Below are positions 3-25,756 of a stretch of DNA of 40,258 bases, in pieces (within the stretch, counting starts at the first letter, position 1; every line of letters starts with the position of its first letter). The stretch is from Opitutia bacterium (lineage in GTDB: Bacteria > Verrucomicrobiota > Verrucomicrobiia > Opitutales > Seribacteraceae), in the NCBI GenBank assembly GCA_002686835.1, contig NYYP01000027.1, forward strand, positions 1 through 40,258. Reading direction: 5' to 3'. Both the position numbers and the translations under genes were made by a program. The notes beneath the pieces were generated by a model. The model searched no databases and was not told the origin of the DNA. It saw only the letters and a program-made list of their open reading frames with translations.

Positions 3-545
3 TACCGTGACCAATGGAATCAAGTGGCGCCTCATGAAATATTGGAAATCGATCTGGCAACTGGAGAGTATGAGGTTTTAACAGCTGGCAAATTAGAGTG
101 GGATTGGTCTTTATATTCGCTTTCCGCGTATGATGACTTTTCCACGGTCTCTGTCTTTTATCCGGACGGGACGGAGCAACCCCCTCAAGCGATTACCGAT
201 TCCGATGGGGATGGGCTTCCTGATGATGTAGAAATTGCCGCGGGAATGGATCCCAATTCCAGTGACAAGGCGGTCGTCGATGCAGTCTACGATTATTTTT
301 TCAGTTCGGGCAGCGGGCCGGTCAAATCCCTGCAAAAGTCCAATCCTTATACCCATAGTTGGTACTATCAGCCGGGAATGGGTTGGATGTGGACAAGCGG
401 CAATGCCTTTCCCTACATTTTCAAATCTGGATCGGGCGATCAGACTGGGAGCTGGATGTTTTACAGCGAGGAATCATCCGATCCCATCCGGATGTACGAC
501 TTCGAACGAACTCAGTGGATTAGTCTGGGGGAGGTAAGAGATTGA
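3..545 (+). CDS. Partial secreted/surface protein (C-terminal part): Asp-rich thrombospondin-3-like segment (SDGDGLPDD) plus aromatic C-terminal domain; 5' end outside window
   Basis: The frame is open upstream of the listed GTG at 24 (YRDQWNQVAPHEILEIDL...). Contains DSDGDGLPDDVEIAAGMDPNSSD and a Trp/Tyr-rich C-terminus ending ...RMYDFERTQWISLGEVRD. Confidence 0.75.
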   Translation, partial: YRDQWNQVAPHEILEIDLATGEYEVLTAGKLEWDWSLYSLSAYDDFSTVSVFYPDGTEQPPQAITDSDGDGLPDDVEIAAGMDPNSSDKAVVDAVYDYFFSSGSGPVKSLQKSNPYTHSWYYQPGMGWMWTSGNAFPYIFKSGSGDQTGSWMFYSEESSDPIRMYDFERTQWISLGEVRD

Positions 546-13720: not shown

Positions 13721-13843
13721 TAAGGGGCAATGATTTTGACGATTTATCCCTTTACTTCCTCAAAAAATATGAAGATTGTTGTATCATAAAGAGTAGTTTT
13801 GTTAATATTATCTAAGATAGTTAACACAATCCAGTCCCTGTTT

Positions 13844-15844
13844 ATGAAAATCATTAAATTAAGCCCGTTATTCTACCCGATCTTTTTTCTCATCCCTGCT
13901 TTTCTTTATGCAAATGTAGGTGGTGCATCAGGGTCTAATATTTTCACCATTGCTGAAGGCAACTACTCTGATCCCACTTACAAGATCGTGAGTGCTGCTT
14001 CCCTTGGTGACCCTGTTTTTTCTGGCTCAGTATCTTCTTCTTCCAACTCGGATAAAAATATTACTTTCGCGACCGGCACCGACGAAAATAACAATACCAC
14101 TTATCCCTTCTTTGCGGCTGGTTCTTTTAAGCCAGATGTTCAACTTCCAGAAGTAAATCTTTCAGTAACGGTGGGCTCGGGGGCTGTGTCTTCGATTACA
14201 GCACCCACTTATCGAAATATGTTTCAAGCCTCTGGAGTCGGGTTCACCAATGCTCCTGAAGTCATTATCTCGCCATCGGATGGTGGTGGCGACACGGCAA
14301 CTGCGACTGCGAGCATTAATGCAGATGGTAAGGTAACAGGTTTTACCATCACAGCTGGAGGTACCGCCTATACAACAGCTCCTGATGTCACCATCGTGGG
14401 TGGTCCCCATTTTGCCCGTGTCGCGGATGAAACAAGTCAGTATTACGGAAGATGTTTTTTAATCACCAACAATAGCCGAACAAACCTGACTTTAGATATG
14501 TCCAACCTTGCTGACGGAGAAAGTACAAATGTTTCTACCTATTTCCCCGATGGAACATCTGTTGAGGTGATCCCTGCAGCTACACTTGGTACGATATTTG
14601 GAGCTTACTATGCACCCACAAATTGGGGGTCAGCAACGAGTTGGCGTGGAACTACCGGAAATACTGTGGACTGGGTGTATGTTTATGATCCTTCACTTGG
14701 TGGTTACACGAAGTATGTCCACATTGCAGGGAGCAACTTATACGGGTGGTATTCTCGAGACAAAAGATATGGTGTTAAATGTAATAATACCGTGGTTTAT
14801 CCAGATGAAGCGTTTATTATTGCCCGCAGAAGCTCGAACACAGTTACCTTAGAATCAGCAATTAATTTCGACGATACCCCTACGCAAATTTATCTACCCG
14901 CTGAAAATAATTCATTTATTGCGAACAATCCATTTGGTATGGATCTACTTTTAACTGAGATTATACCTTCAACGGAGATTGCAGACAGTGGAAATGCAAA
15001 ATTTCGTGCTGGAGATTCTTCTGATGATACAGATATGGATTCCATCACAGTTTTAGCGGGATCTACCTGGAAAAAGTATTGGTATAAATCCGGGGTCAAT
15101 TCTGGGATTACTACCCTAATGAAGGCGGGGGCAAAAAACCCTGGCGGTGCTATTGCCGCGAGTGACTTGTTCATCGGTTCGGGTTCAGTCACTGCTTTAG
15201 CAAGCTGTACAAATGCAGCTGGCACATCACTAGTTACCAATTATAATGATGGAAATTATACTAAGATTTCCATTTCAGGGACGACTGCTAATCTTACTGG
15301 TTTCACTGTTACTTTATCTAACATTCAGGGCTACATGCTCAGTGATGATGGAGCAAATGAGTTAAATGCGACCACACTCCAGACTGTCGATACCAATGGA
15401 ACTGGTTCTGTTGTTTACTCCAATATTTCTGGCAACTTTGAAGTTGTTGGAGGAGGTTCTGGTTACATTGTTGTAGAAAAGCAGCGTGATGTTAATTTCA
15501 AGAATGAAGGATCACCTGCTTGGAGTATCGGAAATGTAGGTGCAGGTTATGATACCTCCAGTTCCACAGCAACCTGGTATGCAATAGGAGGTGGAGGATC
15601 TGGAGGAAAGGGCACAGTTACTACCAATGGTTCGGGGCAGTATTCGAGCTTTGGTCTTACTGCGGGAGGATCTGGCTACACCTCAGCTCCGCAAATCATC
15701 ATTTCCGGAGGTGGTTGGCGATATACTGATAGTTCCTCACAAGATGATGTTGTTGTTGGTTCGTCTGACGGTCTTATAATTTACCGGGATGCCAATAGCG
15801 GAGTTAAGACTTTTATTGAGGCAAATAATCCAACTGCCGAGTAA
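13844..15844 (+). CDS. Secreted protein, TIGR02597-like, with GSGYTSAP-type repeats
   Basis: Signal peptide MKIIKLSPLFYPIFFLIPAFLYA; ...YGRCFLITNNSRTNLTLDMSNL...VEVIPAATLGTIFG...; GVGFTNAPEVIISPSDGGG and GGSGYTSAPQIIISGGG repeat segments. ATG 13844 preferred over 13799. Confidence 0.7.
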   Translation: MKIIKLSPLFYPIFFLIPAFLYANVGGASGSNIFTIAEGNYSDPTYKIVSAASLGDPVFSGSVSSSSNSDKNITFATGTDENNNTTYPFFAAGSFKPDVQLPEVNLSVTVGSGAVSSITAPTYRNMFQASGVGFTNAPEVIISPSDGGGDTATATASINADGKVTGFTITAGGTAYTTAPDVTIVGGPHFARVADETSQYYGRCFLITNNSRTNLTLDMSNLADGESTNVSTYFPDGTSVEVIPAATLGTIFGAYYAPTNWGSATSWRGTTGNTVDWVYVYDPSLGGYTKYVHIAGSNLYGWYSRDKRYGVKCNNTVVYPDEAFIIARRSSNTVTLESAINFDDTPTQIYLPAENNSFIANNPFGMDLLLTEIIPSTEIADSGNAKFRAGDSSDDTDMDSITVLAGSTWKKYWYKSGVNSGITTLMKAGAKNPGGAIAASDLFIGSGSVTALASCTNAAGTSLVTNYNDGNYTKISISGTTANLTGFTVTLSNIQGYMLSDDGANELNATTLQTVDTNGTGSVVYSNISGNFEVVGGGSGYIVVEKQRDVNFKNEGSPAWSIGNVGAGYDTSSSTATWYAIGGGGSGGKGTVTTNGSGQYSSFGLTAGGSGYTSAPQIIISGGGWRYTDSSSQDDVVVGSSDGLIIYRDANSGVKTFIEANNPTAE

Positions 15845-16146: not shown

Positions 16147-19100
16147 TTATTTGCTCAGCCATTCTGAGTTGGCATAATCATAAATCACTAGGCGGGTAAA
16201 GTCTGAGCTTTCTAAATTAACGAAGTACCAACTACCAACAGATGAGGAATGCAGGTAGGGGTAGTGCTCTTTGGCTGTCCAAAACCAATCTTCCATCTTT
16301 TGTATCCATACCCAGATTGATTGGTCCCCTTTTTTCTTCATGTATATCCACCCCAATTTTTCGTGAAATAACCAGTCCTCATCTCCAACTTTCCAGAAAT
16401 ACCCAAACCATGGATTTCCCCACCAACCGTTATCCAGGGATGAAGAATCATCAAAAACGCCTACGCTTTGAAAATGTGCAACCACGCTGGTGTTTTCAAA
16501 GACACTGATTTGAGTGGTGGCATCATATGCGTTTGAGAATGTGGCCCCTTCCCAGTGCGAAAATTCAAATCCCTCCTTTGCATATGCCTGGATTGTTCGA
16601 ACACCTCTAAAAAAACCAGATCCACTAGTTGTTCCTTGGCTGGTGTTATCCGAATAAACGCTAAGTAAATATAATTTATTTGAGTCTTCATTAGACGGAG
16701 GATTATCAGCATCCACCACAAAAACCGCAGTTAATTCTTTGTTGCCATCCAAAGCCAGTGATGTGGTGCTGGAATAGGCATCTTTGACTATTCCTACAGC
16801 ATCCGAGCCATTAAAGTCCCAATGCGAAAATAAATACCCTTGTTTAGGCATGGCTAAAATAGCATGGTCGGGATTGTACTCAAATGAACCTCCTCCAAAA
16901 AGATAGGAAGCTGCTCCATCAGGTTCCGAAACCAAGCTTAAATTAACCAATCCTTCGGGAGCAAAATAAGCGGTCAGTTTGATATCATTGCCAAGAGAAA
17001 AAGACTGGCTTGCCCGATTGGGAGATCCTAGGCTTACGCCTGTAGCATCCCATTTGACAAAACGATACCCTTCCTCCGCGTAAGCAGAGACATTGATATC
17101 ATCTCCATATGAAAAGTCATCCCGCAATAAAGATTCGGACACAGGGAAATCATTGAGTTGTGCATTGCCTCCCACGCTTGGACTAATTTTAAGATCAACT
17201 TCGTATTTTCTTTCAGTTACCACTGCAGTTAGGTTTAAATCGGCGAGCATTTCATGGGTGTAAATTGTCTCAGTTGATAGGACTATATCTTGGTTTGCTT
17301 CGTTCCGCCAATGGTCCAGTTTGTACCCGTTCGCCAATGAAATGTGAAATTCAACGACTTCTTCATCTTCGGCAGTTTCTCTACCCAGTATTCTACCACC
17401 AAAAATTCCATCTTGAGGTAAGCCAAATTCATCTTCCACAACAACTTGGTAGGAAATATTATATTCTTTCGATTTAAATAGCGCAGTTAGTTTAGCGTTT
17501 CCAAGGATCGTAAACTGAGCTGGGTTACTTGTATTTAAATAATTACTTGCCAGTGTGGCATTGGCATCAATTTTCCAGCCATGAAAAAGTTTTCCCGCAC
17601 GAGGAATTGCTTCTATCTCAGCAATATTTCCATAATTATATGTGTTTTCAATCGAACTATATCCACCATAACCATCGGGTTCAAAAGATACAGTCAGGGT
17701 GTAATCCTTTGGTCTAAACTCTGCGTTGATAGCCGAATCTTTTTGGATGGTGAGTGATGTGCTTGGGGAAAATTCATTTTCTAAATGTTCACTGCCCACC
17801 CCAGTCCATTTATAAAATTCCCAGTGTTCATCTGGAGTAGCAAGTAGGCTAATTGTGTCTCCCCAGTAATAGGGGTATGTTGCATTCATTTCTGAGGAAC
17901 CGCCTTCGTTTGCAGATAAATCGATTTGGTAATGATTCTTGCGTAATACGGCCTGAAAATTCCGGGAATATGTTATGACTGTGCTAAAGGCTTTCTGGGT
18001 GGTCACGATCTCTCCGCTATCGAGATCGACCCAGTATAGAAAAGTATAACCTGTAAAGGGGTTCAGTTCCAGAGCGACTGAGTCCCCATGGTAGATTACA
18101 TCTGGTCTTGATACAGATGCTCCAATATCTCCCAAAATGGCTTGGTTGTTTTGGTCTAATGAAAGCAGTTGTATGTTTAGGTCTAGAACTATTTTGGAAA
18201 AGTTTGCCTGAGCTTTTGCATCGCCAAGGACTTTGAAATCCGCAGTTTGATTAAATCGGTCCTCGGGATTATCCAATGAAAGGTTTTCCAATAAACTCCA
18301 TTCGTCAAATTGTTTGCCAATCAGGGGGGAAGCCGAAAGGGTGACATATTCTCCGTAAGTGGAAGTTTCAGTTGGTGCATTAAGGAGTCCGTAATCAGCA
18401 GGAGTTGCATTTACATCTATCCGGTACTCAACTTGTTTGAAAATAGCACGGACTTCAGTATTTTCCACGACGCTTAGGATTGTCTGCATAGCATCTGGGT
18501 TTTGAATATGGGAACTTCCTTCCCAATGTGAAAAATACCAGTGGTCGGATGGCGTTGCAGTTATGGAGATTTCGTCTCCCCAGAAATAAATATCCTGCTC
18601 CGTGTAATCCGTTGTCCCTTGGCCGCTTGAACTAACGGAAATTGTGTGTCTGGTGCGCTCAAAATTTGCTCGCAGTCCAAAGTGTTGTGTCACCCTATTT
18701 GAAAAGACAGGGTTGTTGGGATTGGGGAGTATGAAAGAATCTTCGACCGTTGAAATTTTAATGCGGTTTCCTGAATAATTACTTCCCGTGCCATGATAGT
18801 AGAGCATGCTTGGTGCATCCATAGGTACTTCAAAAGTTAGCACTCCCTCAGATGTTAAGTGTCCAGTAATTCCTGATAGATAGTAAGCATCCTGGTCGCT
18901 AGAATCAGCAGAAGTGGATATAAAGAATTCATCTGACGAACTCAAATTACAATCAAAGTGGTAGGTAAACCCTCTGGACAGGGAAAGTTCCGGGCTTTCA
19001 TGATTATTTATAAACAGCCTTGTTTCAGATGAATGGATCGATGAATTATTTCTACTGATCTGAAAGGTGGTTTCTTTAATTAATTCCCAATTAACAAAGG

Positions 19101-22100
19101 TGAAGTTTTCATCAGCAGAAGCAGTGAGAATAAGGTTGGTTCCGTAGTTAATTTCATCGGTAAATCCAGAAATTGCTCCCTGACTTTGATTGTATTCAAG
19201 GGTTAAGTAATTGATTTTTGGCTGAAAGTGAGCCCAGATTTCGGAAGTCTCTACTAGTTCAGTATCAACAGAATACAAACTCCAATGTTGGGAAAATGCT
19301 TCACCTGTTTTGCTTTCCCAACCAATGAAGCTGTAACCGGTATTTGGTTGAGCCACTAATCTTTGAAACTGGGCTGAACTGAAGGAACTATTTTCGCCCG
19401 CAGAACCAGCATAGGGCGGGGTAGCGATTAATGAATACCCTATTTCGTTGCGCTCGGTAAAGTAAGCCCAAAATGAGTAATTTGCATCAAGAAAGGGAAT
19501 GTTAAATGTGGAAGAATAAGAAAATCCTGTCTCTCCTAAAGTGTTTTCCCAATACATGTAGTTTAACATGTGGCTTTCCGCATCGAGAGGAACTGCACTT
19601 ATAGTGACACTTGAGGTTGCATTATATTCGGTTTGGTTAAGTTGAGTAATTTCATTGTGTGTTCCACTAATCTGAAAACTTCCGTTTTCATCGGATAGGG
19701 CATTGATGGAGTAAACCTTGGGCACAAAGGAAGGTTGAATTTGAACATTAAATGATGGGATTCTCAGCTTGTTATTTGCTTCACCTGGGTCATGTACCAA
19801 GTGAGTATCTCCTCCGTTCCAACGATCAAAGAGATAGTGTTCCTGAGGCGTTGCATTGATATCCACAACAGTTTCAAATAGATACACCCCACCACCGCTC
19901 GCACTGCCTCCAATTTCAGTCTGATCGATGTTCAGTGAGTAGCTGTCCCTTTCAAATTTTGCACTTATATTTATGTCTTCCACTGGAATAAAGTCGATTT
20001 GGTCATCGAGTGGATTGAGATTCGGTTCTGAGTCCCGTAAACTGTCGGATTCCGGAAGACCAAACCATTGGGAGAATTTCCAGCCATTGATGGGAAGGGC
20101 ATTGGCTCCAAATCTGGTGGCTGAGTCGATACCAATAATTTCTTGCGTTGCATCAGCTATGAAAAGAATTTCATTTTTGCTCAAATCAACCGTCCCCGAG
20201 CCTTCCGTGCTCGTGCCAATCAAATAGGACTCCAATACAAAATTCGGGGTAAAACTAAGATTTCGCAGTGGAAGAGATGTATGATCAATAGTTGTCTGGG
20301 ATGCATTTGGGTCTAACAAATATTGAGTATCTCCAGACCAATGAGAAAAATCCCACCCCGGGTCTTCCATGGCAATTAATAAAGGACTGTCATAAACATT
20401 AAAGGAGGCAGGGGCAGTGGTTTCTCCTCCTTCTTGGGCCAATATTTCGATGTCATAATCAACAATAGAAAAGGAAGCATTGATTTCCATGCCACCTTCA
20501 ATTCGTAAGCGGTTGTTAGGACTGGATGTATTATAGAGCAGTAAGGACTCTTGTGATGTATCTAGTAACCATCCATTAAATTCATATCCTTTTACCGGAG
20601 TGGCATTTAAATCATAGGAAGAAAAATGAAGAAAGTTGCCGGATTCCTCAGATTCTAGCAACACTTCGCCACCATTTCCAGAATTTACCACAATTTGGGT
20701 ATCATCATATTCGGTAATTTTGAATTCTGCGGTGATATTTAAATCGCTGGACGGATAGAAATAAATAACAGAGGAGTACTGATCTACATGGGCAAGCGGA
20801 TTGTATAGCTCAGAAATGCCAGGTAGTCCCCTCCAGTTTGAAAAACTCCAGCCGTCTTGGGCAATTGTCTCAAATACAATTTGGGTTTCGGAATCCACAG
20901 TGACCGACTGGAATGCAACCCCGTTGAATGATTCTCCACTCGATAAAATTATATCTACACTGCCATTACCCTCAGTATTCAGAGAAATTTGATAATTTTC
21001 AGGCACAAAATTGGCAATCAGGCTTAAATCCTCAGGAACTGAGTTATCTTCTAATACAATAAATGTTTCGGAAGCTAAATGATCTAATAAATATTCCGTA
21101 TCTCCTGACCAATGCGTGAAGCGGTTTCCCTGAAAAGGGATAGCTTTAATCGATGGAGTATCTTGCATGGTGAAGTTTTCCGGTCCCAAAGTAGTTCCTT
21201 CACCAGAAGATGATAGATTTAGCTCATACTCGCTTAGGGTAAATGATGCGCGAAGAGAGAGTGGGCCTTCGATTAAGAATTTATTGTTTTTCTCCTGGGA
21301 ACCGAATTCGAGTTGCTCAGTATCGCCCACCCATTGATCAAATTGATAACCTAAGCTAGCCGTGGCATTAAGCTCATAAGATGTAAAATGGGTAAAGCCT
21401 CCAGAGTCATCAGTTTGAAAAAGGATGTTTCCTCCCGCATCTGCAGTAATATTTATATCCGATTCATCATAATCATCTAATCGCAGGATTGCAGATACCG
21501 AAGCACTATCATGGGGATAAATTTTGCTAATATTTGCTTCAGTTTGTGCAAGATTTGGATTGGCTAGAATTCCAAGGGGGTCTTGCCAATAATCAAACAC
21601 AAAGCCTTCTTGCACCTCGACCTCCACAGGAACTATGCTCAGAGCAGGGAATTGCCCAGAAGAAGAAAGGGAGCTGTACCCCTGGGTCGATTCGATATTC
21701 AACTGGTAGCTAATTTCAAAGAAACTGGCTGTTATGTTAACATCTGCAGTTGGGATAAAGCTCGTGTGGGCAAAATTTTGGTTTCCCAGCATTGATATGC
21801 CATCACTTGTAGTTATCCAACTGTTAAAACCAAAGTGTTTCTCAGGGATCGATCGCAAGAAATATTCGACCCCATGCTCGATGACTTGTGGTGTCGATCC
21901 ATTGGTGTCTAGGAGTTCGTAAGATCCCCCTAACTCAGCCCCAATTAAAACATCGTATGTGTTGCGGGTGAAAACAGCGACCAAATCCAGATTTCCAGGA
22001 ATGGAAATGGTCTCGATAGCATTCGAACTGAAATGTGTGCCATTATTTTCCCAGTGGCTGAAAGAATGACCGTAATCTGGAGAAGCAAAAATATCGACTG

Positions 22101-23265
22101 AGTCTCCAAAACTAAATGAACCCCCACCAGTAACTGAACCATTTCCATTAACTTCCAAATTTAAAAAATAAGGAACCAGGGCAAATTCTGCATAAATAGT
22201 TTGTGCACCGTCAACTGTCAGGGTGGTATTTTCAGTCCATGGGTCGGATAAACCACTGCCAATCCAGCCATTAAAATAAGAATGAGGACCAGGGGTTGCA
22301 GTTATGTTGATCTCTTGACCCCATGTATAGGATCCGTTGATATCGGAAATTGTACCGGAACCAGTTGAGTTTGCATAATTTGAAACCCCAATCGTGTAGG
22401 TTGGTGACAGGGATGTTTTAAAGGGATTGGCGGGGTCTTCAAAAATAGCCCCAGTTTTCCATGAAGAAGCAATATTTGATATTTTGAAATAATGATTAGA
22501 TGGGATGCTCGACCCATTGGGGAAAGAGGGCCAGAGCCATTCCGCTCCGGTGACGGTGTTGTAGTTGGCACCACCTAATGTTGGCTTATCATAAAAGCGA
22601 ATACAAACAGGAGTACCAGGGGGCGGAGTCGTGGCTGTTATTGTAAAACCTGGACTATCTTCGAACTCTTTGGGTTCTGTGGGGAAAACCACAATATAAT
22701 CACGATTTTTGAGAAAATTAGTGGTGAAGATGAACATACCATCATTAAATCCATATCCAGAACTGGAATCACCAACATGAGTTTGGCGAGTGAGTGCAAT
22801 CCATTGACCAGAAAATGGATCGCTGGTTGTTGCGCTGGTAAAATAACCAAGTTCCACTAAGTCTCCATCCCCATTCCCTTGCACTCCAGCACTTAGTGGG
22901 TTTCCGTTTGCATCTTTTAAAACCTCTGCAGAGCCGTCAATTGTTGTTGTGCCCCAAACAATGGTAATTTGCGGAGTGGCTGAAAGTGCGGATACCAGGG
23001 ATAGTCCTGTGATGAAAAATAATAACTTAGGCCAAAGTGTTACCCCAAAAACAAAATTCAGGCACTGTTTAATTCGAAATAATGACTTGTTTTTCTTGTA
23101 TATTTTTGTGTGGCATCGACCGCGACGGGTAGGCTGCGAAATTGAAGTGAAAAGGGGAGTTGCTTTGGTGGGTGGCCAGGTGGGTTTGTAACTAATTGAT
23201 GCAAAGAGACTTAGTGCAAATCTTTTCAAAGAGCACAAATAGGTAATATAATGCATTAAAACCAA
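16147..23265 (-). CDS. Giant secreted protein (up to 2372 aa): shared N-terminal domain, about 20 divergent InlB-B-like (Flg_new-type) repeats, aromatic C-terminal domain
   Basis: Recurrent unit [YW]GD.I.I.A.P...Y.F..W.......(N)....I.......I.A.F...Y.L; hydrophobic segment WPKLLFFITGLSLVSALSA near the N-terminus; true start uncertain. Confidence 0.85.
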   Translation of the reverse strand: MVLMHYITYLCSLKRFALSLFASISYKPTWPPTKATPLFTSISQPTRRGRCHTKIYKKNKSLFRIKQCLNFVFGVTLWPKLLFFITGLSLVSALSATPQITIVWGTTTIDGSAEVLKDANGNPLSAGVQGNGDGDLVELGYFTSATTSDPFSGQWIALTRQTHVGDSSSGYGFNDGMFIFTTNFLKNRDYIVVFPTEPKEFEDSPGFTITATTPPPGTPVCIRFYDKPTLGGANYNTVTGAEWLWPSFPNGSSIPSNHYFKISNIASSWKTGAIFEDPANPFKTSLSPTYTIGVSNYANSTGSGTISDINGSYTWGQEINITATPGPHSYFNGWIGSGLSDPWTENTTLTVDGAQTIYAEFALVPYFLNLEVNGNGSVTGGGSFSFGDSVDIFASPDYGHSFSHWENNGTHFSSNAIETISIPGNLDLVAVFTRNTYDVLIGAELGGSYELLDTNGSTPQVIEHGVEYFLRSIPEKHFGFNSWITTSDGISMLGNQNFAHTSFIPTADVNITASFFEISYQLNIESTQGYSSLSSSGQFPALSIVPVEVEVQEGFVFDYWQDPLGILANPNLAQTEANISKIYPHDSASVSAILRLDDYDESDINITADAGGNILFQTDDSGGFTHFTSYELNATASLGYQFDQWVGDTEQLEFGSQEKNNKFLIEGPLSLRASFTLSEYELNLSSSGEGTTLGPENFTMQDTPSIKAIPFQGNRFTHWSGDTEYLLDHLASETFIVLEDNSVPEDLSLIANFVPENYQISLNTEGNGSVDIILSSGESFNGVAFQSVTVDSETQIVFETIAQDGWSFSNWRGLPGISELYNPLAHVDQYSSVIYFYPSSDLNITAEFKITEYDDTQIVVNSGNGGEVLLESEESGNFLHFSSYDLNATPVKGYEFNGWLLDTSQESLLLYNTSSPNNRLRIEGGMEINASFSIVDYDIEILAQEGGETTAPASFNVYDSPLLIAMEDPGWDFSHWSGDTQYLLDPNASQTTIDHTSLPLRNLSFTPNFVLESYLIGTSTEGSGTVDLSKNEILFIADATQEIIGIDSATRFGANALPINGWKFSQWFGLPESDSLRDSEPNLNPLDDQIDFIPVEDINISAKFERDSYSLNIDQTEIGGSASGGGVYLFETVVDINATPQEHYLFDRWNGGDTHLVHDPGEANNKLRIPSFNVQIQPSFVPKVYSINALSDENGSFQISGTHNEITQLNQTEYNATSSVTISAVPLDAESHMLNYMYWENTLGETGFSYSSTFNIPFLDANYSFWAYFTERNEIGYSLIATPPYAGSAGENSSFSSAQFQRLVAQPNTGYSFIGWESKTGEAFSQHWSLYSVDTELVETSEIWAHFQPKINYLTLEYNQSQGAISGFTDEINYGTNLILTASADENFTFVNWELIKETTFQISRNNSSIHSSETRLFINNHESPELSLSRGFTYHFDCNLSSSDEFFISTSADSSDQDAYYLSGITGHLTSEGVLTFEVPMDAPSMLYYHGTGSNYSGNRIKISTVEDSFILPNPNNPVFSNRVTQHFGLRANFERTRHTISVSSSGQGTTDYTEQDIYFWGDEISITATPSDHWYFSHWEGSSHIQNPDAMQTILSVVENTEVRAIFKQVEYRIDVNATPADYGLLNAPTETSTYGEYVTLSASPLIGKQFDEWSLLENLSLDNPEDRFNQTADFKVLGDAKAQANFSKIVLDLNIQLLSLDQNNQAILGDIGASVSRPDVIYHGDSVALELNPFTGYTFLYWVDLDSGEIVTTQKAFSTVITYSRNFQAVLRKNHYQIDLSANEGGSSEMNATYPYYWGDTISLLATPDEHWEFYKWTGVGSEHLENEFSPSTSLTIQKDSAINAEFRPKDYTLTVSFEPDGYGGYSSIENTYNYGNIAEIEAIPRAGKLFHGWKIDANATLASNYLNTSNPAQFTILGNAKLTALFKSKEYNISYQVVVEDEFGLPQDGIFGGRILGRETAEDEEVVEFHISLANGYKLDHWRNEANQDIVLSTETIYTHEMLADLNLTAVVTERKYEVDLKISPSVGGNAQLNDFPVSESLLRDDFSYGDDINVSAYAEEGYRFVKWDATGVSLGSPNRASQSFSLGNDIKLTAYFAPEGLVNLSLVSEPDGAASYLFGGGSFEYNPDHAILAMPKQGYLFSHWDFNGSDAVGIVKDAYSSTTSLALDGNKELTAVFVVDADNPPSNEDSNKLYLLSVYSDNTSQGTTSGSGFFRGVRTIQAYAKEGFEFSHWEGATFSNAYDATTQISVFENTSVVAHFQSVGVFDDSSSLDNGWWGNPWFGYFWKVGDEDWLFHEKLGWIYMKKKGDQSIWVWIQKMEDWFWTAKEHYPYLHSSSVGSWYFVNLESSDFTRLVIYDYANSEWLSK
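17110..18582 (-). repeat. Super-repeat pair 2 inside the giant gene (two tandem three-unit copies)
   Basis: Copies 17866-18582 (DIYFWGDEISITATPSDHWYFSHWEG...) and 17110-17865 (YPYYWGDTISLLATPDEHWEFYKWTG...); period about 717-756 nt by aligned aromatic residues. Confidence 0.7.
18751..18999 (-). other. Cupredoxin-like domain inserted within an InlB-B-like repeat
   Basis: ESPELSLSRGFTYHFDCNLSSSDEFFISTSADSSDQDAYYLSGITGHLTSEGVLTFEVPMDAPSMLYYHGTGSNYSGNRIKIS matches the P.L.L.RG.TY.F ... G.LTF.VP.DAP..LYY ... I.I pattern. Confidence 0.6.
19942..21471 (-). repeat. Super-repeat pair 1 inside the giant gene (two tandem three-unit copies)
   Basis: Copies 20710-21471 (YDESDINITADAGGNILFQTDDSGGFTHFTSYELNATASLGYQFDQW...) and 19942-20709 (YDDTQIVVNSGNGGEVLLESEESGNFLHFSSYDLNATPVKGYEFNGW...); period 762-768 nt. 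Confidence 0.8.
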
Positions 23266-23440
23266 GCTACAATTCGATAGGGCCTTTATGTAATAATCTA
23301 AATCTTATGGCCATTGAATTGCAAGAAAATGTCTCCTAAATTTGAGTGTTAAAAATGTGATAATTTCAAAATCATTTCGTTATTCAAAAATAATTTGACT
23401 TTGAATGAACTATAAGTTCAGATTAAATGACCCTATAATT

Positions 23441-25756
23441 ATGTTACGTAAAGTAAGATTAGCAAGTTTGCCCGTTTGCCTGATGTTGGTTGCCAGTGCA
23501 CTTTCCGGTGTCAATACTTGGGAGTTCGATTGGAGTACTCACTTAGGTTTAAGTGCACCAAACACAGTTGGTGATACTGATCCTTCTAGTATCCAGCATT
23601 TGTACGAGTTGAATGCTGCTGGTTCAACCGAATCACTACTTACCACATCAAGTGCAGGGAATTCCTATGATGGTGATTTGATCGAGCTTGGCTTTTTTGA
23701 CACGGATGGAACCATTGATGGTGGAAGCTACACTCCAAATGAGGATCATACTGATTTGTTCAAGGGGATTTGGACACCATTAACCTCCAAGACAAAAATC
23801 GGGAGAGACTGGAGTGGGACTACTGTTGATGCTGGTGAATTTTATTTTTACACAAAATTCCAGCTGGATGCAGGCAACGCTGGTAATGCCGTCAACAATT
23901 ACTCGATTTCCAATCTAAGTAGCAATCAACTTGATAACGATAATTTAGGAGATTCGAGTAATCCCAACACACTGGAATACCGCTTAAATGGATTAACCGA
24001 TGATACTTTGATCGGTATAAGATTTTACGATGCGACCTCTGCGACCAGTGGAAGCACACGATACAACACCATCATGAACCCAAACTGGGATTGGGTTGGC
24101 GGAGAAATGATGACACTTCACAAAACAGATGGAACAGGGCTGAATACTGACCTAGTCTTTGAATTTGATAATACCAGTGCAGATTCCGGTTCCAAAATTG
24201 GGACATCTGATGCTTCCATTAGTGGGCTGACCAACGGAGATTTTGTGGCTACCGTAACTTATTTCGATGGAAGTGAAACGATCAATGTGGGGGATAGCGG
24301 TGGTGGTATTGGTTCCTCGGTATTCAGCGGATTAAATGGCTCTGGGAAATTGTATGGTGGGCAGGATGGAAATGTTGTGACTATCCATTCCCAGTCAGGT
24401 AACACAGGTGCCAGTGCCTATGAATTTGACGGGGATTTTTACCGTGCGGCAACTGGTACTGATTCAACCGACCTTACCATTGTAAAATCCGGGACGGGAG
24501 ATCAAATCCTCAGCGGTAACTTGAATCTTGCCGATTCTACTGATAATGGCTCTGCGAGCGGCGGACTTAAGATTGCTGCAGGTAAGTTAACACTAAAGCC
24601 CGGTAGTAATTCTCAGACTGTGGAATACTTAGAAGGTTCCGGGACTCTTGTGCTAGACAATACTGGTGCTTCGAACAATATTGTAACCCTTGGGTTTGCC
24701 AATAATACTGCATCTTCATTTTCAGGAAATGTCGAACTTGCTGGATCTGGTAGCGAGGCTAAAATTGGAGTTTCTTCGGGTAGTACTGACGCTGATTATA
24801 ACAATGTTCAAACAATATCCGGAGTTGTTTCTGGCTCAGAAAAATTAGTTAAAGAAGGTGTTGGAGCTTTAAAATTGAGTGGTACCAATACTTTCGATAG
24901 TGATGTCGAAATAAATGGCGGTCGCATAATTGCTGCTAGTGCTCAGGCACTGGGTGATACTGGAAACACTATCGTCATCAACACTGGCAAACTTGAAGTT
25001 GCAAGTGGCACAACCCTTAACTCTGGTTATACTATTCAGGGAGACTCAGATGGAAGTGGTAGAAGTTTTGTTGGAGGTGATGGTACAATTGGAGGAAGTG
25101 TTACCATTGGTTCGGCCAACAACGAAATTGATGTTGTAGCACCTGGTGAGGGATTAAGCACATCCATAAATCACGACAAAAAACAAGCACCAAGAGGTCA
25201 TGGAGGCGATTCTACCCTTGCCGTTGGTAATTTTACTGTGGGGACCTTGACATTTAATGATGGTGGTGTTTACGATTGGGAGATTGATAATTTCGGTGGA
25301 AGTGAAGGAACCAATTGGGACCTTTTGAATTTTACTACTCTTAACCTTACCGACAAGACCGACACCTTTACCATCAATGTATTGGGTCTGGACCCAACCA
25401 CCGATCTTTCTGGTTCTCCTACTGGAGATAATCTTTGGACTCAAGGTGGTACTCAGTGGAAGTTTTTACAAGGTAGCACCATTAACTGGGGTGGTGGTTC
25501 GCAATGGAGTGATGCTGAAATTAAGTCCTATTTTGATGTTCGCTACGATGACATTGCATACCAGGAAAATATGTGGGGTGCGGATTGGTATGTATCTTAC
25601 AACAGTGGTGCATTTTACCTTCAATTCTCTGCTGTTCCTGAACCCTCTACATACATGATGGTTACTGGATTATTGATGGTCCCTGGAATATCCTATGTCC
25701 GTAGATTGAGGAATAAAAAAGCAGAAGCCAATGTGGATGAAAGTCCACTTCCTTGA
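23441..25756 (+). CDS. PEP-CTERM sorting-domain protein with autotransporter-associated beta-strand-type repeats
   Basis: Signal peptide MLRKVRLASLPVCLMLVASALS; LVKEGVGALKLSGTNTFDSDVEINGGRIIAASAQALG; C-term AVPEPSTYMMVTGLLMVPGISYVRRLRNKK (PEP motif, TM, basic tail). ORF can start at 23405. Confidence 0.92.
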   Translation: MLRKVRLASLPVCLMLVASALSGVNTWEFDWSTHLGLSAPNTVGDTDPSSIQHLYELNAAGSTESLLTTSSAGNSYDGDLIELGFFDTDGTIDGGSYTPNEDHTDLFKGIWTPLTSKTKIGRDWSGTTVDAGEFYFYTKFQLDAGNAGNAVNNYSISNLSSNQLDNDNLGDSSNPNTLEYRLNGLTDDTLIGIRFYDATSATSGSTRYNTIMNPNWDWVGGEMMTLHKTDGTGLNTDLVFEFDNTSADSGSKIGTSDASISGLTNGDFVATVTYFDGSETINVGDSGGGIGSSVFSGLNGSGKLYGGQDGNVVTIHSQSGNTGASAYEFDGDFYRAATGTDSTDLTIVKSGTGDQILSGNLNLADSTDNGSASGGLKIAAGKLTLKPGSNSQTVEYLEGSGTLVLDNTGASNNIVTLGFANNTASSFSGNVELAGSGSEAKIGVSSGSTDADYNNVQTISGVVSGSEKLVKEGVGALKLSGTNTFDSDVEINGGRIIAASAQALGDTGNTIVINTGKLEVASGTTLNSGYTIQGDSDGSGRSFVGGDGTIGGSVTIGSANNEIDVVAPGEGLSTSINHDKKQAPRGHGGDSTLAVGNFTVGTLTFNDGGVYDWEIDNFGGSEGTNWDLLNFTTLNLTDKTDTFTINVLGLDPTTDLSGSPTGDNLWTQGGTQWKFLQGSTINWGGGSQWSDAEIKSYFDVRYDDIAYQENMWGADWYVSYNSGAFYLQFSAVPEPSTYMMVTGLLMVPGISYVRRLRNKKAEANVDESPLP

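Follow-up and report, generated by a model that had tools for sequence, protein, structure and literature searches.

A tryptophan-rich module on exported proteins of marine Opitutales that appears to take the place of PEP-CTERM in some paralogues

The C-terminal domain of type IX secretion (TIGR04183) is a folded beta domain found on diverse exported proteins, and the choline/cell-wall-binding repeats (PF01473) consist of aromatic beta-hairpins, each roughly 20 aa long, that follow one another. The PEP-CTERM/exosortase system (TIGR02595, PF07589, PF09721) marks the C-termini of many otherwise unrelated exported proteins with about 25 aa of motif, helix and basic tail. GlyGly-CTERM and MYXO-CTERM, which are served by rhombosortase and myxosortase, respectively, are likewise tripartite, with a helix, a basic cluster and a known protease (PMC3237569, PMC11980579), and sorting tags such as GlyGly-CTERM have been recognised by homology restricted to the C-terminus and by protein families that alternate between tags (PMC3237569). 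The module described here, a tryptophan-rich domain of about 100 aa (W-module), resembles PEP-CTERM in its C-terminal position on many otherwise unrelated exported proteins, in occupying the same slot in one passenger family and in occurring in the same genomes, but is predicted to be a folded beta domain. It also displays the genomic pattern of GlyGly-CTERM, as its carriers are homologous mainly at the C-terminus and one family bears alternative tags; however, it has neither the helix nor the basic cluster of GlyGly-CTERM and MYXO-CTERM. Like the type IX domain it is predicted to be a folded beta domain and mostly lies at the C-terminus of diverse exported proteins, but some copies are N-terminal. 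The succession of aromatic hairpins is reminiscent of the PF01473 repeats, although no Pfam, PDB-sequence or fold match accompanies this likeness.

The window, i.e., the whole stretch of DNA analysed, is 40,258 bases long and forms the start of a contig of 73,913 bases. Two of its open reading frames (ORFs), a giant one (16147-23265, minus strand) and one truncated at the left edge (3-545, plus strand), end in related tryptophan-rich tails. The relevant features are:

16147..23265, minus strand: giant carrier ORF, 2372 aa, with a long leader holding a signal-peptide-like stretch, an N-terminal domain, about 19 InlB B-repeats (PF18998) and the W-module
16150..16446, minus strand: full W-module, 99 aa at the C-terminus of the giant protein (own-genome-free profile, E 2.6e-21; AlphaFold pLDDT 94.0, pTM 0.83)
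22531..22869, minus strand: N-terminal domain of the giant protein, aa 133-245, common to the adjoining PEP-CTERM protein (BLASTP E 9e-7)
23669..24094, plus strand: counterpart of this N-terminal domain in the PEP-CTERM neighbour 23405-25756, aa 89-230 (BLASTP)
25634..25711, plus strand: PEP-CTERM tag of this neighbour (TIGR02595, 18.8 bits, cut-off 16)
198..260, plus strand: TSP3_bac repeat of the calcium type that precedes the half-module of the left-edge protein (PF18884, E 1.5e-5)
348..524, plus strand: half W-module at the end of the left-edge protein, comprising hairpins 3-5 (own-genome-free profile positions 46-100, E 4.2e-11)

A sequence-only reading of this DNA had proposed that one aromatic C-terminal domain is common to the giant and the left-edge protein. 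The sequences it quoted are present as written, and the searches agree with it: BLASTP of the two sequences gave an E value of 2e-8, the pair scored 43.5 bits with composition adjustment off as compared with at most 26.9 bits in 1969 shuffles of the left C-terminus, and a six-frame search of the window with a profile devoid of rows from its own genome returned only these two ORFs, the best of 4000 shuffled tails reaching an E value of 0.14 with the same profile. Aromatic-rich low-complexity stretches may resemble one another, but a chance likeness of two proteins is refuted by a real score far above the shuffles, by W, G, P, H and T columns that are fixed across about 144 distinct homologues and by a shared fold that is predicted with confidence. 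The tryptophan-rich tail is a real protein domain without an existing name. The two tails are homologous; however, the left-edge copy is a half-module only. The aromatic units in the earlier part of both tails, which had also been aligned, are similar but were paired out of register: WLFHEKLGWIY is hairpin 2 in the giant protein, whereas WYYQPGMGWMW is hairpin 3 in the left copy, and their match reflects the resemblance of the module's hairpins to one another.

The consensus of 59 copies reads GW..S.WFG.F.....GW.YH..LGWLY.........WLW....GWLWT....YP.LY......WLY......G...FYDY, and tryptophan makes up 10% and aromatic residues 23% of the module. In the numbering of the window copy, W73 is invariant, W13, G15, W25, W33, W45, W54 and P63 are conserved to about 90% or more, and conservation of H28 and T57 is high. 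AlphaFold2, run on the window copy with the 59 sequences, predicted ten strands arranged as five beta-hairpins (mean pLDDT 94.0, pTM 0.83). The model of the left-edge half-copy was confident at about aa 41-90 of the 100 modelled, corresponding to the last three hairpins, and of low confidence over the first 40 residues or so. A Foldseek search with the module model gave a best E value of 0.66 against the PDB and no match at 0.001 in the PDB or a viral fold library. Searches of Pfam and NCBIfam with the 59 members returned no family match, in line with the supposition that the domain lacked an annotation, and PDB sequences and the open-licence literature likewise yielded no match to and no description of the module, respectively. 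A PDB profile match to XepA (E 0.032) and hits of single members to Pfam WW, DUF6600 and others were taken as chance. The suggested likeness to cell-wall-binding repeats found no backing in either the sequence or the fold searches. Among viral contigs, one relative was found.

Hydrophobic segments were not found in the 59 modules, the best mean hydropathy over 19 residues being 0.9, and only one of the 59 has at least three basic residues among its last eight. Since it has neither a hydrophobic helix nor a basic tail, the module is, judged by its sequence, not a sortase-type tag.

The placement of the module was determined for 144 distinct copies, and for 142 of them the stop of the ORF is visible; two further ORFs leave the contig stretch. 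Among these 142, taken from loci that represent the best-scoring matches and not a random sample but were chosen by sequence and not by position, the module ends within 5 aa of the stop in 110 and within 15 aa in 129, and more than 40 aa away in only 7. Three copies (L024, L026 and L032, all in genome G132) directly follow the signal peptide instead, with fasciclin, pullulanase-associated or unassigned regions downstream, and two ORFs contain two copies each. The expectation that the module would always be C-terminal therefore describes the large majority, but because of the three N-terminal copies the module is not purely a C-terminal signal. In a few carriers (L198:1726-10818, L126 and L130), an extra tail of 55-64 aa, charged and probably helical (e.g. 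NPRDLKRDAIQIISSANIPEEEANKRISKIILYGL), follows the module.

The passengers are mutually unrelated, and the carriers have little in common beyond the module. They include repeat proteins (InlB, cadherin, TSP3, Ig-like, LTD), proteases of the trypsin, kumamolisin and matrixin types, and GH16, endonuclease I, purple acid phosphatase, nucleoside phosphorylase, fasciclin and DUF285 domains. The giant protein itself matches PF18998 with an E value of 6e-129 and has a full-length homologue of 2383 aa and 67% identity in genome G286. By a loose heuristic, the protein begins in a signal-peptide-like manner in 42 of the 54 carriers whose N-terminus is visible, as compared with 107 of 237 other ORFs. One carrier (L034) with an N-terminus that by eye is sulfotransferase-like has no signal peptide by this heuristic and is a possible exception to the export rule. 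Another (L135:5056-6315) is an enzyme of the nucleoside phosphorylase family that has a signal-peptide-like N-terminus and ends in a W-module. Clustering of neighbouring genes at 78 loci did not identify a recurrent machinery gene; the neighbours were only other surface proteins, sulfatases and housekeeping genes of syntenic loci. Near the giant ORF, 13799-15844 (plus strand) encodes an exported-looking protein of 681 aa without a Pfam or NCBIfam match.

The relation to PEP-CTERM was visible within the window. The giant protein and its divergent neighbour, which as proposed bears a PEP-CTERM tag scoring above the cut-off, have a common N-terminal domain but different ends, and G286 has the same divergent pair (N-terminal domain E 4.6e-7). 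Conservation of the pair 16147-23265/23405-25756 is seen in a congeneric genome (L193). In G132, three tandem paralogues, whose passengers share 63-72% identity as far as the tag, differ in their ends, one terminating in VAVPEPSTYAALGGLFAGALVFWRRRRQA (PEP-CTERM) and two in the W-module. A search of the order with the G132 passenger matched six genomes: in G197, a single paralogue with PEP-CTERM adjoins two that bear the W-module, G309 has one PEP-CTERM protein and one with a divergent W-like tail below the profile threshold, and G281, G305 and G228 have the passenger family with PEP-CTERM. By sequence comparison, the module thus replaces PEP-CTERM in the same slot of one passenger family in G132 and G197, and G309 is probably a third genome with both tags in this family. 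An endonuclease I homologue (L223) has neither tag and adds no further exchange case. None of 164 module carriers has a PEP-CTERM tag; the sole regular-expression match (L021) lies inside the module and is not a tag. The proposed mutual exclusion accordingly applies per protein but not per genome, as 29 of 42 genomes of the window's GTDB family also have an exosortase and both systems therefore coexist. Six family genomes with 8 to 37 W-modules have 0 to 2 tags of the TIGR02595 type, a count for which the model may be less sensitive in this family, and three genomes of two other families have 45 to 99 PEP-CTERM tags each.

The module was found in all 42 genomes of the window's family, with 3-37 copies each, in 77 of 273 genomes of the order and in 9 of 388 genomes of a phylum sample, 7 of the 9 coming from the order; as most genomes are incomplete assemblies, the copy counts are lower bounds. 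The genome of the window has 8 copies and 2 half-copies; an ORF on its contig 23 ends in a half-module (profile E 3e-5). On its contig 16, an exported leucine-rich-repeat protein (L196:14080-15405, minus strand) has a weak half-module-like W-rich stretch at the N-terminus, directly behind the signal peptide (E 0.16). Nearly all relatives that bear a name come from marine Opitutales/Opitutia assemblies and a few from bins with the label Deltaproteobacteria or Syntrophobacteraceae; among the named relatives, the isolate AH-709-B10 has a copy identical to one from a genome of the window's genus.

The suggestion that the domain is an alternative anchor or sorting module is well motivated because of its C-terminal bias, the lack of PEP-CTERM on its carriers, the lack of a Pfam or NCBIfam name and the replacement of PEP-CTERM. 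Our preferred reading, to which we assign about an even chance, is that the module serves surface retention as a folded domain rich in aromatic residues, binding an envelope component non-covalently, most likely a surface polysaccharide. An N-terminal signal peptide would take the carriers out of the cytoplasm, and the module, usually the last domain, would then keep the passenger at the outer surface through this non-covalent binding, possibly to the polysaccharide; it would thereby occupy the slot held by the PEP-CTERM/exosortase tag in other proteins of the same bacteria. Retention of the carrier, glycan binding and the route over the outer membrane are what we infer here. Several points speak against retention: the conserved aromatics may be mere core residues, searches by sequence and by fold did not link the module to any known glycan- or wall-binding family, a few passengers are enzymes and could be targeted to their substrates instead, and the near-fixed placement at the C-terminus in the window's family would be equally compatible with an export signal.

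Such an export signal would be read by a dedicated outer-membrane machine, analogous but not homologous to type IX secretion, and possibly cleaved during export. The strong C-terminal bias, the many unrelated passengers, the exchange with PEP-CTERM and the patchy occurrence among related genomes (77 of 273 in the order) are all consistent with it. However, three copies are N-terminal and two ORFs have two copies, the 59 members had no match in NCBIfam including its type IX models, SprA was found in none of 9 genomes, though control genomes were equally silent, and no machinery neighbour recurs in the 78 loci, so that we consider this explanation unlikely. As the module has neither helix nor basic tail and three copies are N-terminal, a binding module is favoured over a strict export signal. 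Binding might also be directed away from the cell, the module acting as a carbohydrate-binding module that aims enzymes or adhesins at external polysaccharides such as algal glycans; the aromatic richness, some glycan-active carriers (GH16, pullulanase-associated domains) and the occurrence at either protein end, as in such modules, fit this, but most carriers are not enzymes acting on glycans and the slot is exchanged with a cell-surface tag, which renders it quite improbable. Still less credible is a structural cap with no retention role, by which long exported repeat proteins would have their C-terminus stabilised or protected: the module is frequent on long repeat proteins of the InlB, cadherin and Ig-like kinds, but it is also present on compact single-domain enzymes (trypsin, nuclease, phosphorylase) and is exchanged with a sorting tag.

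Opitutales might possess a second, exosortase-independent system of surface display. Its tag would be a five-hairpin, Trp-rich fold not described before, recognised by a receptor or secretion partner of its own, and in one marine family PEP-CTERM would largely have given way to it; we put this forward as a speculative, rather doubtful extension. One module marks tens of large exported proteins in these bacteria, and its substitution for a known surface tag in paralogues renders display in this group directly testable with a single domain. It also offers annotators a family to name that is not in the Pfam and NCBIfam releases searched, and a compact predicted beta fold without a PDB match.

A further observation concerns the start of the giant ORF (22978-23265, minus strand), in which ATG, GTG and TTG codons are absent from residue 41 to the signal-like stretch at aa 77-96, therefore indicating a long leader or a non-standard start. 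This upstream part is partially conserved in G286.
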